From NCBI RefSeq assembly GCF_001586275.1, contig NZ_CP014545.1, positions 372,001 to 436,000 on the forward strand: a DNA stretch of 64,000 nt. Reading direction: 5' to 3'. Under the pieces are notes generated by a model, which saw only the letters and a list, made by a program, of their open reading frames with translations, searched no databases and had not been told where the DNA came from. Below, piece by piece: positions 16,137 to 57,144 of the stretch. The translations under genes and the position numbers were made by a program. This DNA comes from Sphingorhabdus sp. M41 (GTDB lineage Bacteria; Pseudomonadota; Alphaproteobacteria; Sphingomonadales; Sphingomonadaceae). Each line of letters starts with the position of its first letter. The first letter of the stretch is position 1.

Positions 16137-16167
16137 AAAAAAGGCCGGGATTGCGCCCGGCCTTTTT
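16137..16167 (-). terminator. Rho-independent terminator after rplKA
   Basis: Stem GGCCGGG/CCCGGCC (16143-16149 with 16156-16162) is flanked by a run of six A on the left and five T on the right, so it can work in either direction. It lies 52 bases after the rplA stop and separates rplKA from the transglutaminase gene. Confidence 0.8.
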
Positions 16168-18988: not shown

Positions 18989-19564
18989 TTACCGGACAGT
19001 CGCCGCTTCGATCAGCGAGCCTATCCACGGGAGATGCTCGCGGCCGACAAAAAGCTGGTCTGCAATGACATAAGAAGGCGATTCGAAAATTCCGGATTCT
19101 TCTGCTTTGGCGCGGATGGATAGCAGCTTTTCACGGGCCGATACCATGTCGGGCGGAGCCAAGCCGAGAGAGGAAAGCAGCGACGCGACCACCGCTTCGT
19201 CATCCAGATCTGCCTGCTCGGTCCAGTAAGCGTCAAAAGCAGCGCGGAGGAACGGGACCGGGTCGCCGTCCATGTCAGCCAAGGCGGCGAGGGCGGTTTC
19301 GCTACCTGCCGCTGTTACGGCAAATCGCATCGTCCGTCCCTGAACCGCCGCATAATGCAAATGCATGTCTCTCTGGGCGATCGCACGGACGCGGCGGTGT
19401 CGTTCGCCGACCGTCTCGTCTGCTTGTTCTTCGGGAATGGAAAAGGGGCGGACCGAGAAGGGTAGCCATTCTATCTGCACGCCGGTTTTGCTGGCCAGAG
19501 CCAATGTCGGTTCGAGCGCAAGGAAGGATCCGGGTGACTTGAAATCGATGAAGATGCTCAGCAT
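18989..19564 (-). CDS. DsbA-family / HCCA-isomerase-like protein, second copy
   Basis: A 191-residue thioredoxin-fold protein with the DsbA helical insertion. Instead of a CXXC motif the N-terminal strand reads DFKSPGSFLALEP, as in glutathione-dependent 2-hydroxychromene-2-carboxylate isomerase and kappa GSTs, where a serine activates glutathione. PSYVIADQLFVGREHLPWI is the cis-proline and C-terminal part. It is shorter than its neighbour and its ATG overlaps the neighbour's stop (ATGCTGA), so the two are translationally coupled. Probably isomerase or GST-like rather than a disulfide oxidase. Confidence 0.8.
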   Translation of the reverse strand: MLSIFIDFKSPGSFLALEPTLALASKTGVQIEWLPFSVRPFSIPEEQADETVGERHRRVRAIAQRDMHLHYAAVQGRTMRFAVTAAGSETALAALADMDGDPVPFLRAAFDAYWTEQADLDDEAVVASLLSSLGLAPPDMVSAREKLLSIRAKAEESGIFESPSYVIADQLFVGREHLPWIGSLIEAATVR

Positions 19565-20250
19565 GGCTGTGCCTCCATGGCGTCAAATTCGTACGCGATA
19601 TCGGGTGCCGGACCTTTCCGCCCTTCCAGATGCCAGCGGACATAAGGCAGAAGCTCGCGGCCGAACAGGATCGTGCCGTCAAGAACATAGGTCGGTACGC
19701 CGTAGATGCCGCTCGGGTGGAGCTGCGACTGCAGGGCGTCATGCGCGGCGCGGCCTTCGCCTTGCTGGAAGGCGGCAAAGCCGGTCGAGTCGATGCCTGC
19801 CTGCTCCAGACAGGTTTCGACTATGGCGACATCTTCTATATCCAGCTCCCGCCGCCAGAAAGGCGGATAGACCGCTTCGAGATAATCCCCGAGCCGGTCG
19901 CGGGCGGTCTGCATGGCCCAGGATATCCCGATATTGGCGATCGAGGAATCCCAGATCTTCTCGGTGCCCTTGAGCATCAGTCCCTGACGCTCGGCATAGC
20001 GGCGCGCATCGCGATAGGCATATTTGATCCCGACCCACTGGCTGGCACTGCGGTTGCTTTCAACGACCTTGCCCTTGCTCTTGCGTGCTGAACCGAGATA
20101 GCTCGGGATATCGAGCGTCAGGGGCCGCCAGTCAAAACGCATAGCCAGAGATTTTTCCAGCGCCAGCGTCGGCCGGATGGCGGCAAAGGCATAAGGGCTC
20201 TTGATGTCGACATAGACGATCAACGGTGCGTCACTCTCCAAGGCTTTCAT
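19558..20250 (-). CDS. DsbA-family / HCCA-isomerase-like protein, first copy
   Basis: A 230-residue thioredoxin-fold protein with DIKSPYAFAAIRP at the position of the active-site loop (Ser instead of CXXC) and GIYGVPTYVLDGTILFGRE with the cis-proline near the C-terminus. This matches the HCCA isomerase/kappa-GST branch. The ATG at 20250 has AGGGAG six bases upstream. It follows the PhyH dioxygenase by 23 bases and overlaps the second DsbA-like gene, giving a three-gene operon under the 46-bp palindrome. Confidence 0.83.
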   Translation of the reverse strand: MKALESDAPLIVYVDIKSPYAFAAIRPTLALEKSLAMRFDWRPLTLDIPSYLGSARKSKGKVVESNRSASQWVGIKYAYRDARRYAERQGLMLKGTEKIWDSSIANIGISWAMQTARDRLGDYLEAVYPPFWRRELDIEDVAIVETCLEQAGIDSTGFAAFQQGEGRAAHDALQSQLHPSGIYGVPTYVLDGTILFGRELLPYVRWHLEGRKGPAPDIAYEFDAMEAQPC

Positions 20251-20273: not shown

Positions 20274-21155
20274 TCAATCTTTCGACAAAATTCTGCTCGG
20301 GTGCATGCCATCGACATAGCCCATGAAGGGCGGGTGGATATTGTAGCCCAGCAATTCCTGCACCCGTTTCGGGAAGCGCGCCACTTTTTCAGGCGATACC
20401 GCGAGCAATTGCTGTTCCAGCGGACGGCACCAGCCCTTGCAGAATTGCGGTGTCACGATCAGGCGGGGAACATCGGAACTGTTGCCGCCACCGCGATGCC
20501 ATAAAGTCCCCTTGGCGATCATCAGTGAACCGGCCGGCATGGTCGCCTTGATCATGTCGGGATGGTCATCCTTGCTGCCGGCTTTTTTGTCTGTGACGCC
20601 CGTCTTGAAATCGGAACCGCGATTGGCGCCGACCGGCTGTTCGTTGCCCCATTTGTGGCTGCCGGGGATGATTTCGGTGGCGCCATTGGTCTCGGTCGTG
20701 TCGCTGATCGACCAGAAAGTCGACAGGCTGAGCGGGTCGCGCGGCCGGGCCAGCCCGCAATGGCTGTCATCGAAATGCCAAGGCTGAACGGTTTCGCCGG
20801 GATGCAGGTTGATCGCCAGGCAGGCATAGAGCAGGCAGCTTTCGCCCAGCTCCCGTTCGGCAAAGGCCAGTTGCAGCGGATGGGAAATCAGGTCGGCAAA
20901 GACCGGGTCCTTGTCGAGCATCCCGTAAATGCGATTGGACTGGTCGCCTTCAAAATTGTTGCGGCCGCGGATGTCGGCATCGATCCATGGCTTGAGCGCT
21001 GCGCGCTGTTGTTCCAGCTGCCCGGAGCTCAGGACATCGGTGAAGATGACATAGCCATCCTCCTGATACTGTTCCCAGGCATCATCAAAACTGCGGTCAT
21101 TGAAATAGCGGCTAAGGTCAGTCGCAGGTGATTCAATCTTGCTTGCTACATTCAT
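20274..21155 (-). CDS. Phytanoyl-CoA dioxygenase (PhyH)-family 2-oxoglutarate/Fe(II) oxygenase
   Basis: A 293-residue non-heme iron oxygenase. The iron ligands appear as H127 and D129 (WHFDD) and H220 (LWHRGGG), with R231 placed to bind 2-oxoglutarate. The family hydroxylates CoA esters and many small molecules; the substrate is not evident. The ATG at 21155 (MNVASK) has AAGGAG seven bases upstream and is preferred over an in-frame start 60 bases earlier. It is first in the operon with two DsbA-like genes, divergent from a TetR regulator across a large palindrome. Confidence 0.85.
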   Translation of the reverse strand: MNVASKIESPATDLSRYFNDRSFDDAWEQYQEDGYVIFTDVLSSGQLEQQRAALKPWIDADIRGRNNFEGDQSNRIYGMLDKDPVFADLISHPLQLAFAERELGESCLLYACLAINLHPGETVQPWHFDDSHCGLARPRDPLSLSTFWSISDTTETNGATEIIPGSHKWGNEQPVGANRGSDFKTGVTDKKAGSKDDHPDMIKATMPAGSLMIAKGTLWHRGGGNSSDVPRLIVTPQFCKGWCRPLEQQLLAVSPEKVARFPKRVQELLGYNIHPPFMGYVDGMHPSRILSKD

Positions 21156-21187
21156 CGGTTCGCTCCTTGATTCGCTATCCGGATTAT

Positions 21188-21233
21188 CTCTAACTGCCAT
21201 TTGAATTGAATTCAATTCAAATGGCAGTTAGAG
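21188..21233. promoter_or_regulatory. Perfect 46-bp palindrome, probable TetR operator
   Basis: The half-site CTCTAACTGCCATTTGAATTGAA (bases 1-20 of it at 21188-21207) is followed directly by its exact reverse complement, centred on GAATTC at 21208-21213. All 23 pairs match and there is no spacer. It lies between the PhyH operon and a divergent TetR gene. On the minus strand GATAAT (21188-21183), a 5/6 match to a -10 element, directly abuts and shares one base with the palindrome, so binding would cover the PhyH promoter. It could also form a cruciform. Confidence 0.75.
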
Positions 21234-21311
21234 GGGGGTGGACAGGACGAACCAAGGAGACTGGAAATCGCCGGGGACAACAGGACAGCCCATGGCTCTG
21301 ACCGCAAAGTT

Positions 21312-21875
21312 TTGCGTGCCGCCAAGATATTGGCCGCTGCAGAAATGTTGTTGCGCGAAGGGGGCGGGGAACTTGAAATGGGGCAGGTTGCCGAGAAGGC
21401 CGGCGTGTCGGTCGGGCTCGCCTACCATTATTTCGGCTCCAAATCCGGCATGCTGGGCGCGATAATCCACGCGTTTTACGATCGCTATAATCAGGTGGCG
21501 AACCAGTATATCGATCCGGATATCAAATGGGGTGTACGCGAGAAAAGCCGCTTAATGGCCGTGGTCGAATTTCTCTACAATGACCCGATGGCTCCGGTCA
21601 TTCTCGGCAAGATGGCCCGGACCAACCAGGTCGCGGCGGTTGAATCCGCTCGTCATGAAGAAATGATCGAAATGGCAATCCGCAACATCCGATCGGGCAT
21701 CAAGCGGGGTGATATCGGTTCCCATATTGATCCGACCATCGCTGGCGCAGCCATTACCGGTGCGATACGCAGCGGAATCATGCACGCCATGGGCATGCAT
21801 CCGCGGCCGGATCCGGCCAAGCTGACGCACCAGATATGGGGGATGATTGCCGGGGCGCTCGATATCGAGCGATAG
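21312..21875 (+). CDS. TetR-family transcriptional regulator
   Basis: A regulator of about 187 residues with the TetR helix-turn-helix MGQVAEKAGVSVGLAYHYFGSKSGMLGAIIHAF. The start is uncertain: the first canonical codon is the TTG at 21312, but homology-like sequence (SDRKVLRAAKILAAAEMLL) extends further upstream. The only good ribosome site (AAGGAGA at 21254-21260) is positioned for an ATC codon at 21267. The gene is divergent from the PhyH operon and likely binds the 46-bp palindrome, repressing both sides. Ligand unknown. Confidence 0.85.
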   Translation: MRAAKILAAAEMLLREGGGELEMGQVAEKAGVSVGLAYHYFGSKSGMLGAIIHAFYDRYNQVANQYIDPDIKWGVREKSRLMAVVEFLYNDPMAPVILGKMARTNQVAAVESARHEEMIEMAIRNIRSGIKRGDIGSHIDPTIAGAAITGAIRSGIMHAMGMHPRPDPAKLTHQIWGMIAGALDIER

Positions 21876-57098: not shown

Positions 57099-57144
57099 CT
57101 GAGCCTGTCGAAGCATTGGGCCAGGCGCCCTTCGACAGGCTCAG
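57099..57144. repeat. Dispersed inverted repeat (family C)
   Basis: CTGAGCCTGTCGAAG and its reverse complement CTTCGACAGGCTCAG form a perfect 15-bp stem with a 16-base loop, flanked by GTTC and GGCGAAC. This wording is widespread as an extragenic repeat in sphingomonads to my knowledge. It sits between the acyl-CoA synthetase and hydratase genes and may act as a weak terminator. Confidence 0.8.

Follow-up and report, generated by a model that had tools for sequence, protein, structure and literature searches.

Mirrored evolution of the arms of a perfect 46-bp palindrome that separates the divergent genes tetR and phyH of Sphingorhabdus sp. M41 and its relatives

The window analysed here is a stretch of 64,000 nucleotides from Sphingorhabdus sp. 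M41 (contig NZ_CP014545.1, positions 372,001 to 436,000 of the forward strand), and all coordinates below are counted from its first letter. Within this window, a gene encoding a TetR-family regulator diverges from a row of genes headed by a PhyH-type dioxygenase gene, and the space between them harbours a long palindrome. A reading of the sequence only, made beforehand, had described this element as a perfect 46-bp palindrome without spacer in a divergent TetR/PhyH setting. Both descriptions are confirmed, as all 46 bp are self-complementary and the domain assignments of the two flanking genes hold. The genes and the palindrome are arranged as follows.

18989..19564, minus strand: second DSBA-like protein of the row (PF01323)
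19558..20250, minus strand: DSBA-like thioredoxin-fold protein, next in the row (PF01323)
20274..21155, minus strand: PhyH-type dioxygenase, first in the divergent gene row (PF05721, E 1.8e-25)
21188..21233, no strand: perfect spacer-free palindrome of 46 bp, arm 23 bp, centre between 21210 and 21211
21267..21875, plus strand: TetR-family regulator (PF00440, TetR_N DNA-binding domain, E 5.3e-11)

The palindrome is its own reverse complement and ends sharply, with positions 24–30 from the centre unpaired on either side. The chance expectation for an arm of this length in 3.34 Mb is about 7e-8. In a 464-kb sample of the chromosome, composed of the window and twenty 20-kb stretches, the runner-up among spacer-free palindromes has an arm of only 10 bp, and the sample gives no sign of a genome that is generally rich in palindromes. 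Further genomic copies of the half-site, which the sequence-only reading had thought worth looking for, are absent: neither the 21-base half of the palindrome nor its 20-bp core recurs in the genome, even with three mismatches allowed, and a REP-like or mobile palindrome was rejected because the element is present in a single copy at this tolerance.

The locus was compared among relatives represented by one genome per species, 24 loci being readable and 21 of them, with both arms, being analysed. Fourteen of these loci have long arms of 20–28 bp (12 in the window's genus and two in genus g61), and seven have short arms of 10–13 bp (six in the window's genus and one in genus g35). The loci of G039, G051 and G409 are readable (arms of 10, 15 and 7 bp, respectively) but too distant for the tree, and were not counted. 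Also omitted from all counts are G002, whose contig breaks off 12 bases beyond the centre so that the left arm is missing, and the locus on contig C89 of G029, which breaks off 17 bases beyond it.

The innermost part of the palindrome is conserved and can be described by two nested intervals.

21200..21221, no strand: invariant core of the long-arm loci, probable TetR operator, positions 1–11 on each side
21201-21220, no strand: 20-bp core TTGAATTGAATTCAATTCAA, delimited by conservation and co-occurrence with TetR

Positions 1–10 from the centre are identical on all 42 sides of the 21 loci, and the distribution of this core follows that of the regulator. TetR orthologues with 76–94% identity are encoded in 18 of the 31 other genomes of the genus that were searched, and a perfect copy of the core TTGAATTGAATTCAATTCAA is present in these 18, in the window genome and in none of the remaining genus genomes (19/32). 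With up to one mismatch allowed, a scan of 396 genomes from the order detected the core in 9. Eight of 397 family genomes yielded the TetR at E 1e-45 or better in a profile search, and all eight contain the core; G409, whose TetR is 49% identical and whose core has one mismatch, falls outside these eight. Beyond the genus, the core is located between PhyH-like and TetR frames in G307, G409, G039 and G051, according to our own reading of the translations. The 14 named contigs bearing this TetR come from Parasphingorhabdus and Sphingorhabdus isolates and from bins and assemblies labelled Sphingomonadales or Sphingomonadaceae. Since the same 19 of 32 genomes hold both the core and the TetR, and the PhyH–TetR setting recurs in distant genomes, the core is likely the operator of the neighbouring TetR, and the earlier prediction that the palindrome serves as operator of the adjacent regulator is thus very probably right. 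In autoregulated divergent operators of the TetR family, tetR is oriented away from its probable target and a conserved palindrome separates the two, an organization that the present locus shares. Unlike in usual TetR operators, however, its arms continue beyond the conserved site, and there the two drift together.

Conservation also suggests a pair of promoters at the palindrome, with the following predicted elements.

21206..21211, plus strand: putative -35 element (TTGAAT) of the tetR promoter, conserved, 17 bp upstream of a conserved TA
21229..21234, plus strand: putative -10 region of tetR, starting with the invariant TA at positions 19–20
21210..21215, minus strand: putative -35 element (TTGAAT) of the phyH promoter, conserved
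21187..21192, minus strand: putative -10 region of phyH, starting with the invariant TA at positions 19–20

TTGAAT is present on both strands, its two copies overlapping at the centre of the palindrome, and 17 bp further out TA occupies positions 19–20 on 42 of 42 sides in the 21 loci. From this arrangement, we infer two back-to-back promoters lying under the operator. A scan of 21100-21330 for the sigma-70 consensus returned no promoter above threshold, and the positions proposed here are therefore those given by conservation only. The GATAAT on the minus strand that had been seen abutting the palindrome does exist, but it shares one base with the palindrome and occurs in only one of the 21 loci.

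The start codon of the TetR gene is probably the ATC at 21267-21269, behind a Shine-Dalgarno-like AAGGAG at 21254. An in-frame ATG or GTG occurs at this place in 16 of the 21 orthologous loci and ATC in G000 and G029, while G003, G014 and G012 have none of these codons there and carry an ATG or GTG further upstream. In all but one of the 21 loci, the palindrome centre and the phyH start, taken as the first residue of the alignment, are 54–59 bp apart; the exception is G507, where the distance is 1227 bp and an additional gene may be present between the palindrome and phyH. The GLAYHYF segment of the DNA-binding domain is invariant across 18 aligned TetR sequences. Assignment to a named TetR subfamily was rejected, as all 12 NCBIfam matches (BetI, KstR and others) are under their cut-offs, and solved structures are distant from this TetR, the best chain having an E value of 1.1e-9.

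Between the core and the invariant TA lies a segment whose letters vary from species to species.

21193..21199, minus strand: left mirrored arm segment, positions 18–12, variable among species and mirroring the right segment in 14/14 long-arm loci
21222..21228, plus strand: right mirrored arm segment, positions 12–18, with conserved mirror symmetry and variable letters

Positions 1–11 and 19–20 are invariant in the long-arm loci (n=14), among which 12 distinct arm sequences (positions 11–20) are found. In the variable segment, every difference between species appears on both sides, leaving not a single asymmetric cell out of 98, and the asymmetric decay in close relatives that the sequence-only reading had envisaged is not seen in this set. 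Parsimony on the tree requires at least 28 changes per arm at positions 12–18, identical on the left and the right, although this count is approximate because three nodes in the long-arm clade have a support of only 41–47; a tree-free lower bound is 16 mirrored changes. At the same positions of the short-arm loci, 34 of 49 cells are asymmetric, and outside the palindrome, at positions 29–50 of the long-arm loci, the two sides bear no relation to each other, 220 of 308 cells being asymmetric. When the arms were simulated as independent on the tree, with 2000 runs at each of three rates, the number of asymmetric cells out of 98 averaged 40, 58 and 66 and never fell below 10, 30 and 35, respectively. 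The fastest of these rates, which matches the observed number of changes per site, never gave fewer than 35 asymmetric cells, against an observed zero. The arms therefore evolve as mirror images of each other, more closely than independent mutation allows even by the lowest simulated minimum of 10. A comparison over 66 pairs does not clearly mark the arms as a mutational hot spot, the mean pairwise difference being 0.50 at the seven arm positions versus 0.37 at fourfold sites.

The long-arm form appears to be old. A maximum-likelihood tree of tetR and phyH nucleotides, for which G641 was chosen as the root, separates all 14 long-arm loci from the seven short-arm loci by a branch with an ultrafast bootstrap support of 91%, a distribution that a single origin followed by long persistence fits better than repeated recent origin does. 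The length of the palindrome had been attributed beforehand to either strong selection or recent origin. The second option is not borne out, because the long form is common to 14 loci on one side of the branch, and the pair as such omits a third possibility, the active homogenization of the arms. The distance from the ribosomal gene rplA to the palindrome is about 5 kb in the window genome and about 300 kb in G307, and the two are on separate contigs in G507, so that transfer or rearrangement is possible in genus g61, to which G307 and G507 belong.

Some comparisons come close to single events. The sister loci G011 and G028 differ at 2 of 54 positions left of the centre and at 5 of 100 right of it, and four of these seven differences constitute a mirrored tandem change from GG to AA at positions 16–17 of both arms, where their next relative, G024, has GG. 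G008 has the longest palindrome, with an arm of 28 bp; positions 24–28 of its right arm read ATACC, the same as its own left flank, and its relatives G000 and G004 have GGGGG and CGGCA in their right flanks there. Positions 24–28 of G008 were apparently copied from left to right, although this is a single case in which a chance match of five bases is possible. In a distant pair, the arms of G051 match to position 15, and those of G039 are mismatched at position 11 and matched again at 12–15, a contrast that possibly reflects a single correction event.

The mirrored turnover of the outer letters suggests that one half of the palindrome has repeatedly been copied onto the other in DNA replication or repair, and we consider it probable that the core seeds a hairpin around which the arms are homogenized by templated correction. 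A symmetric TetR operator of 20–22 bp at the centre of two divergent promoters, both of which it would repress, may at the same time nucleate a DNA hairpin. The arms of one lineage would have outgrown a length beyond which any mutation on one side is soon either transferred to the other side or removed, whether because the polymerase changes its template to the nascent strand at the hairpin (template switching) or because mismatches are repaired inside the extruded hairpin. Outside the functional core, the two arms would then drift in sequence while remaining perfect mirror images, and flanking bases would sometimes be drawn into the palindrome. The folding energies of 60-base DNA segments do not overlap between long arms (-15.6 to -27.1 kcal/mol) and short arms (-5.7 to -9.4 kcal/mol), which suits a length threshold above which correction becomes efficient. 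This threshold must be assumed, since the loci with arms of 10–13 bp have not been extended, and the process would not be general in this genome, given that the palindrome at this locus is the only long one without spacer in the 464-kb sample. An intermediate with a single mismatch still to be corrected does not occur among the 14 long-arm loci, represented by one genome per species, and the copying step itself is consequently not seen.

Strong selection for a perfect stem could lead to the same end states, and the main rival to templated correction is that the symmetry itself is selected, a supercoiling-sensitive cruciform or hairpin opening or blocking both promoters while selection compensates for mutations in one arm. 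Perfect pairing with free sequence in 14 of 14 long-arm loci is what selection for structure predicts; the stem energies are high, and the element sits over the putative promoters. For nematode inverted repeats, which persist while their sequence changes, Zhao et al. weighed gene conversion against selection and leaned towards the latter (PMC1803023). We nevertheless regard a selected stem as unlikely here. The seven short-arm loci keep the core, the spacing and an orthologous TetR (67–89% identical to that of the window) and manage without symmetric arms, which favours copying. So do the absence of any single mismatch from the 98 variable cells, though a cruciform should tolerate single ones, the abrupt ends of the palindrome at places that differ by species, from 20 to 28 without pattern, and the tandem changes on both arms within one short branch. 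Stepwise compensation would moreover have to pass through a low-fitness intermediate at least 16–28 times. A combined scheme, in which symmetry rather than sequence is the selected trait, the letters count in the TetR core, the arms matter only by forming a perfect stem (cruciform) that governs the state of the two back-to-back promoters, and template switching supplies the symmetric variants, appears rather improbable to us.

Two other explanations have little to recommend them. TetR-family regulators with long operators bound by two dimers are known, QacR being an example, and by this precedent the outer arms would be extra half-sites for two TetR dimers; the sequence-only reading had suggested that the outer parts may be two overlapping operators or bind a pair of dimers. 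In a variant, selection would keep both promoters equal. These ideas are at odds with the 12 differing outer arms in 14 loci whose TetR proteins are 77–94% identical to that of the window, and with the short-arm relatives that lack symmetric outer arms; identical spacers, for their part, are unnecessary for equal promoter strength. We judge these options highly improbable, and equally so the proposal that the palindrome is transcribed and its stem selected as RNA, in an attenuator, a terminator or a small RNA. The mirrored changes do resemble the compensatory changes of RNA stems, but no terminator-like site with a T-tract after the stem was found in 21100-21330, none of the 15 listed Rfam matches (E up to 1) reaches the gathering score, and the element is upstream of the putative start points, at the distance from phyH given above (54–59 bp in 20/21 loci). 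A neighbouring terminator provides a control for RNA selection.

16138-16167: probable rplA terminator with a perfect 12-bp stem, also present in relatives

This terminator was found in 19 of 21 genomes, rplA not being found in G004 and G008. Its GGCCGGG is kept in 15/19, and it has mismatches in 3/19, all of them G-U in the sequences as printed, where the palindrome has none; the control is weak, as 16 of the 19 terminators are perfectly paired, including those of G012 and G641 with changed stems.

Homogenization of palindrome arms by templated correction has precedents. Lavi et al. (2018), on inverted repeats in Proteobacteria, reportedly support preferential correction to perfect repeats. 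In Escherichia coli, template switching renders quasipalindromes more perfect, an established form of correction (Ripley model, thyA hotspot, lacZ reporters; PMC7202029). There too, imperfect repeats are perfected by copying from arm to arm; these are laboratory events in coding genes, whereas the present case concerns a natural operator with at least 16–28 mirrored substitutions across species. RNA hairpins, too, have been proposed to arise and persist through template switching, again with perfect stems and mirrored changes of several bases along a phylogeny (PMC8794818). Its cases are RNA genes, confounded by selection on the RNA, and the stem described here is probably untranscribed, which makes RNA selection a lesser confounder. 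Concerted evolution of the arms is also known from perfect inverted repeats in the mitochondria of nematomorphs, where arm identity is kept while the sequence varies by species, and where a paired substitution separates two individuals (PMC6649704). Those palindromes, of up to 284 bp, are in mitochondrial coding genes, in contrast to the single bacterial intergenic operator considered here, the inner core of which is fixed, presumably by function. Among the matches listed in a literature search of partial coverage, no paper addressed the concerted arm evolution of a bacterial operator, judging by title or the start of the abstract, and none reported this locus by title, most subscription journals being outside its scope.

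The symmetry of palindromic operators is normally credited to dimeric proteins alone, and here it exceeds the conserved site while the letters turn over. The locus thus offers a countable natural record of palindrome-arm homogenization in bacteria, and it cautions that mirrored, or compensatory, changes alone are no proof of a selected structure.

The palindrome may also leave traces in assemblies. Contig C68 of G002 and contig C89 of G029 both end in its interior, as expected if the palindrome breaks assembly. In G029, two contigs carry two versions of the locus with differing arms, which may represent a mixed bin or two copies. Elsewhere in the window, an inverted repeat at 57099-57144 has 15-bp arms (CTGAGCCTGTCGAAG) separated by a 16-bp loop and looks like a dispersed repeat.
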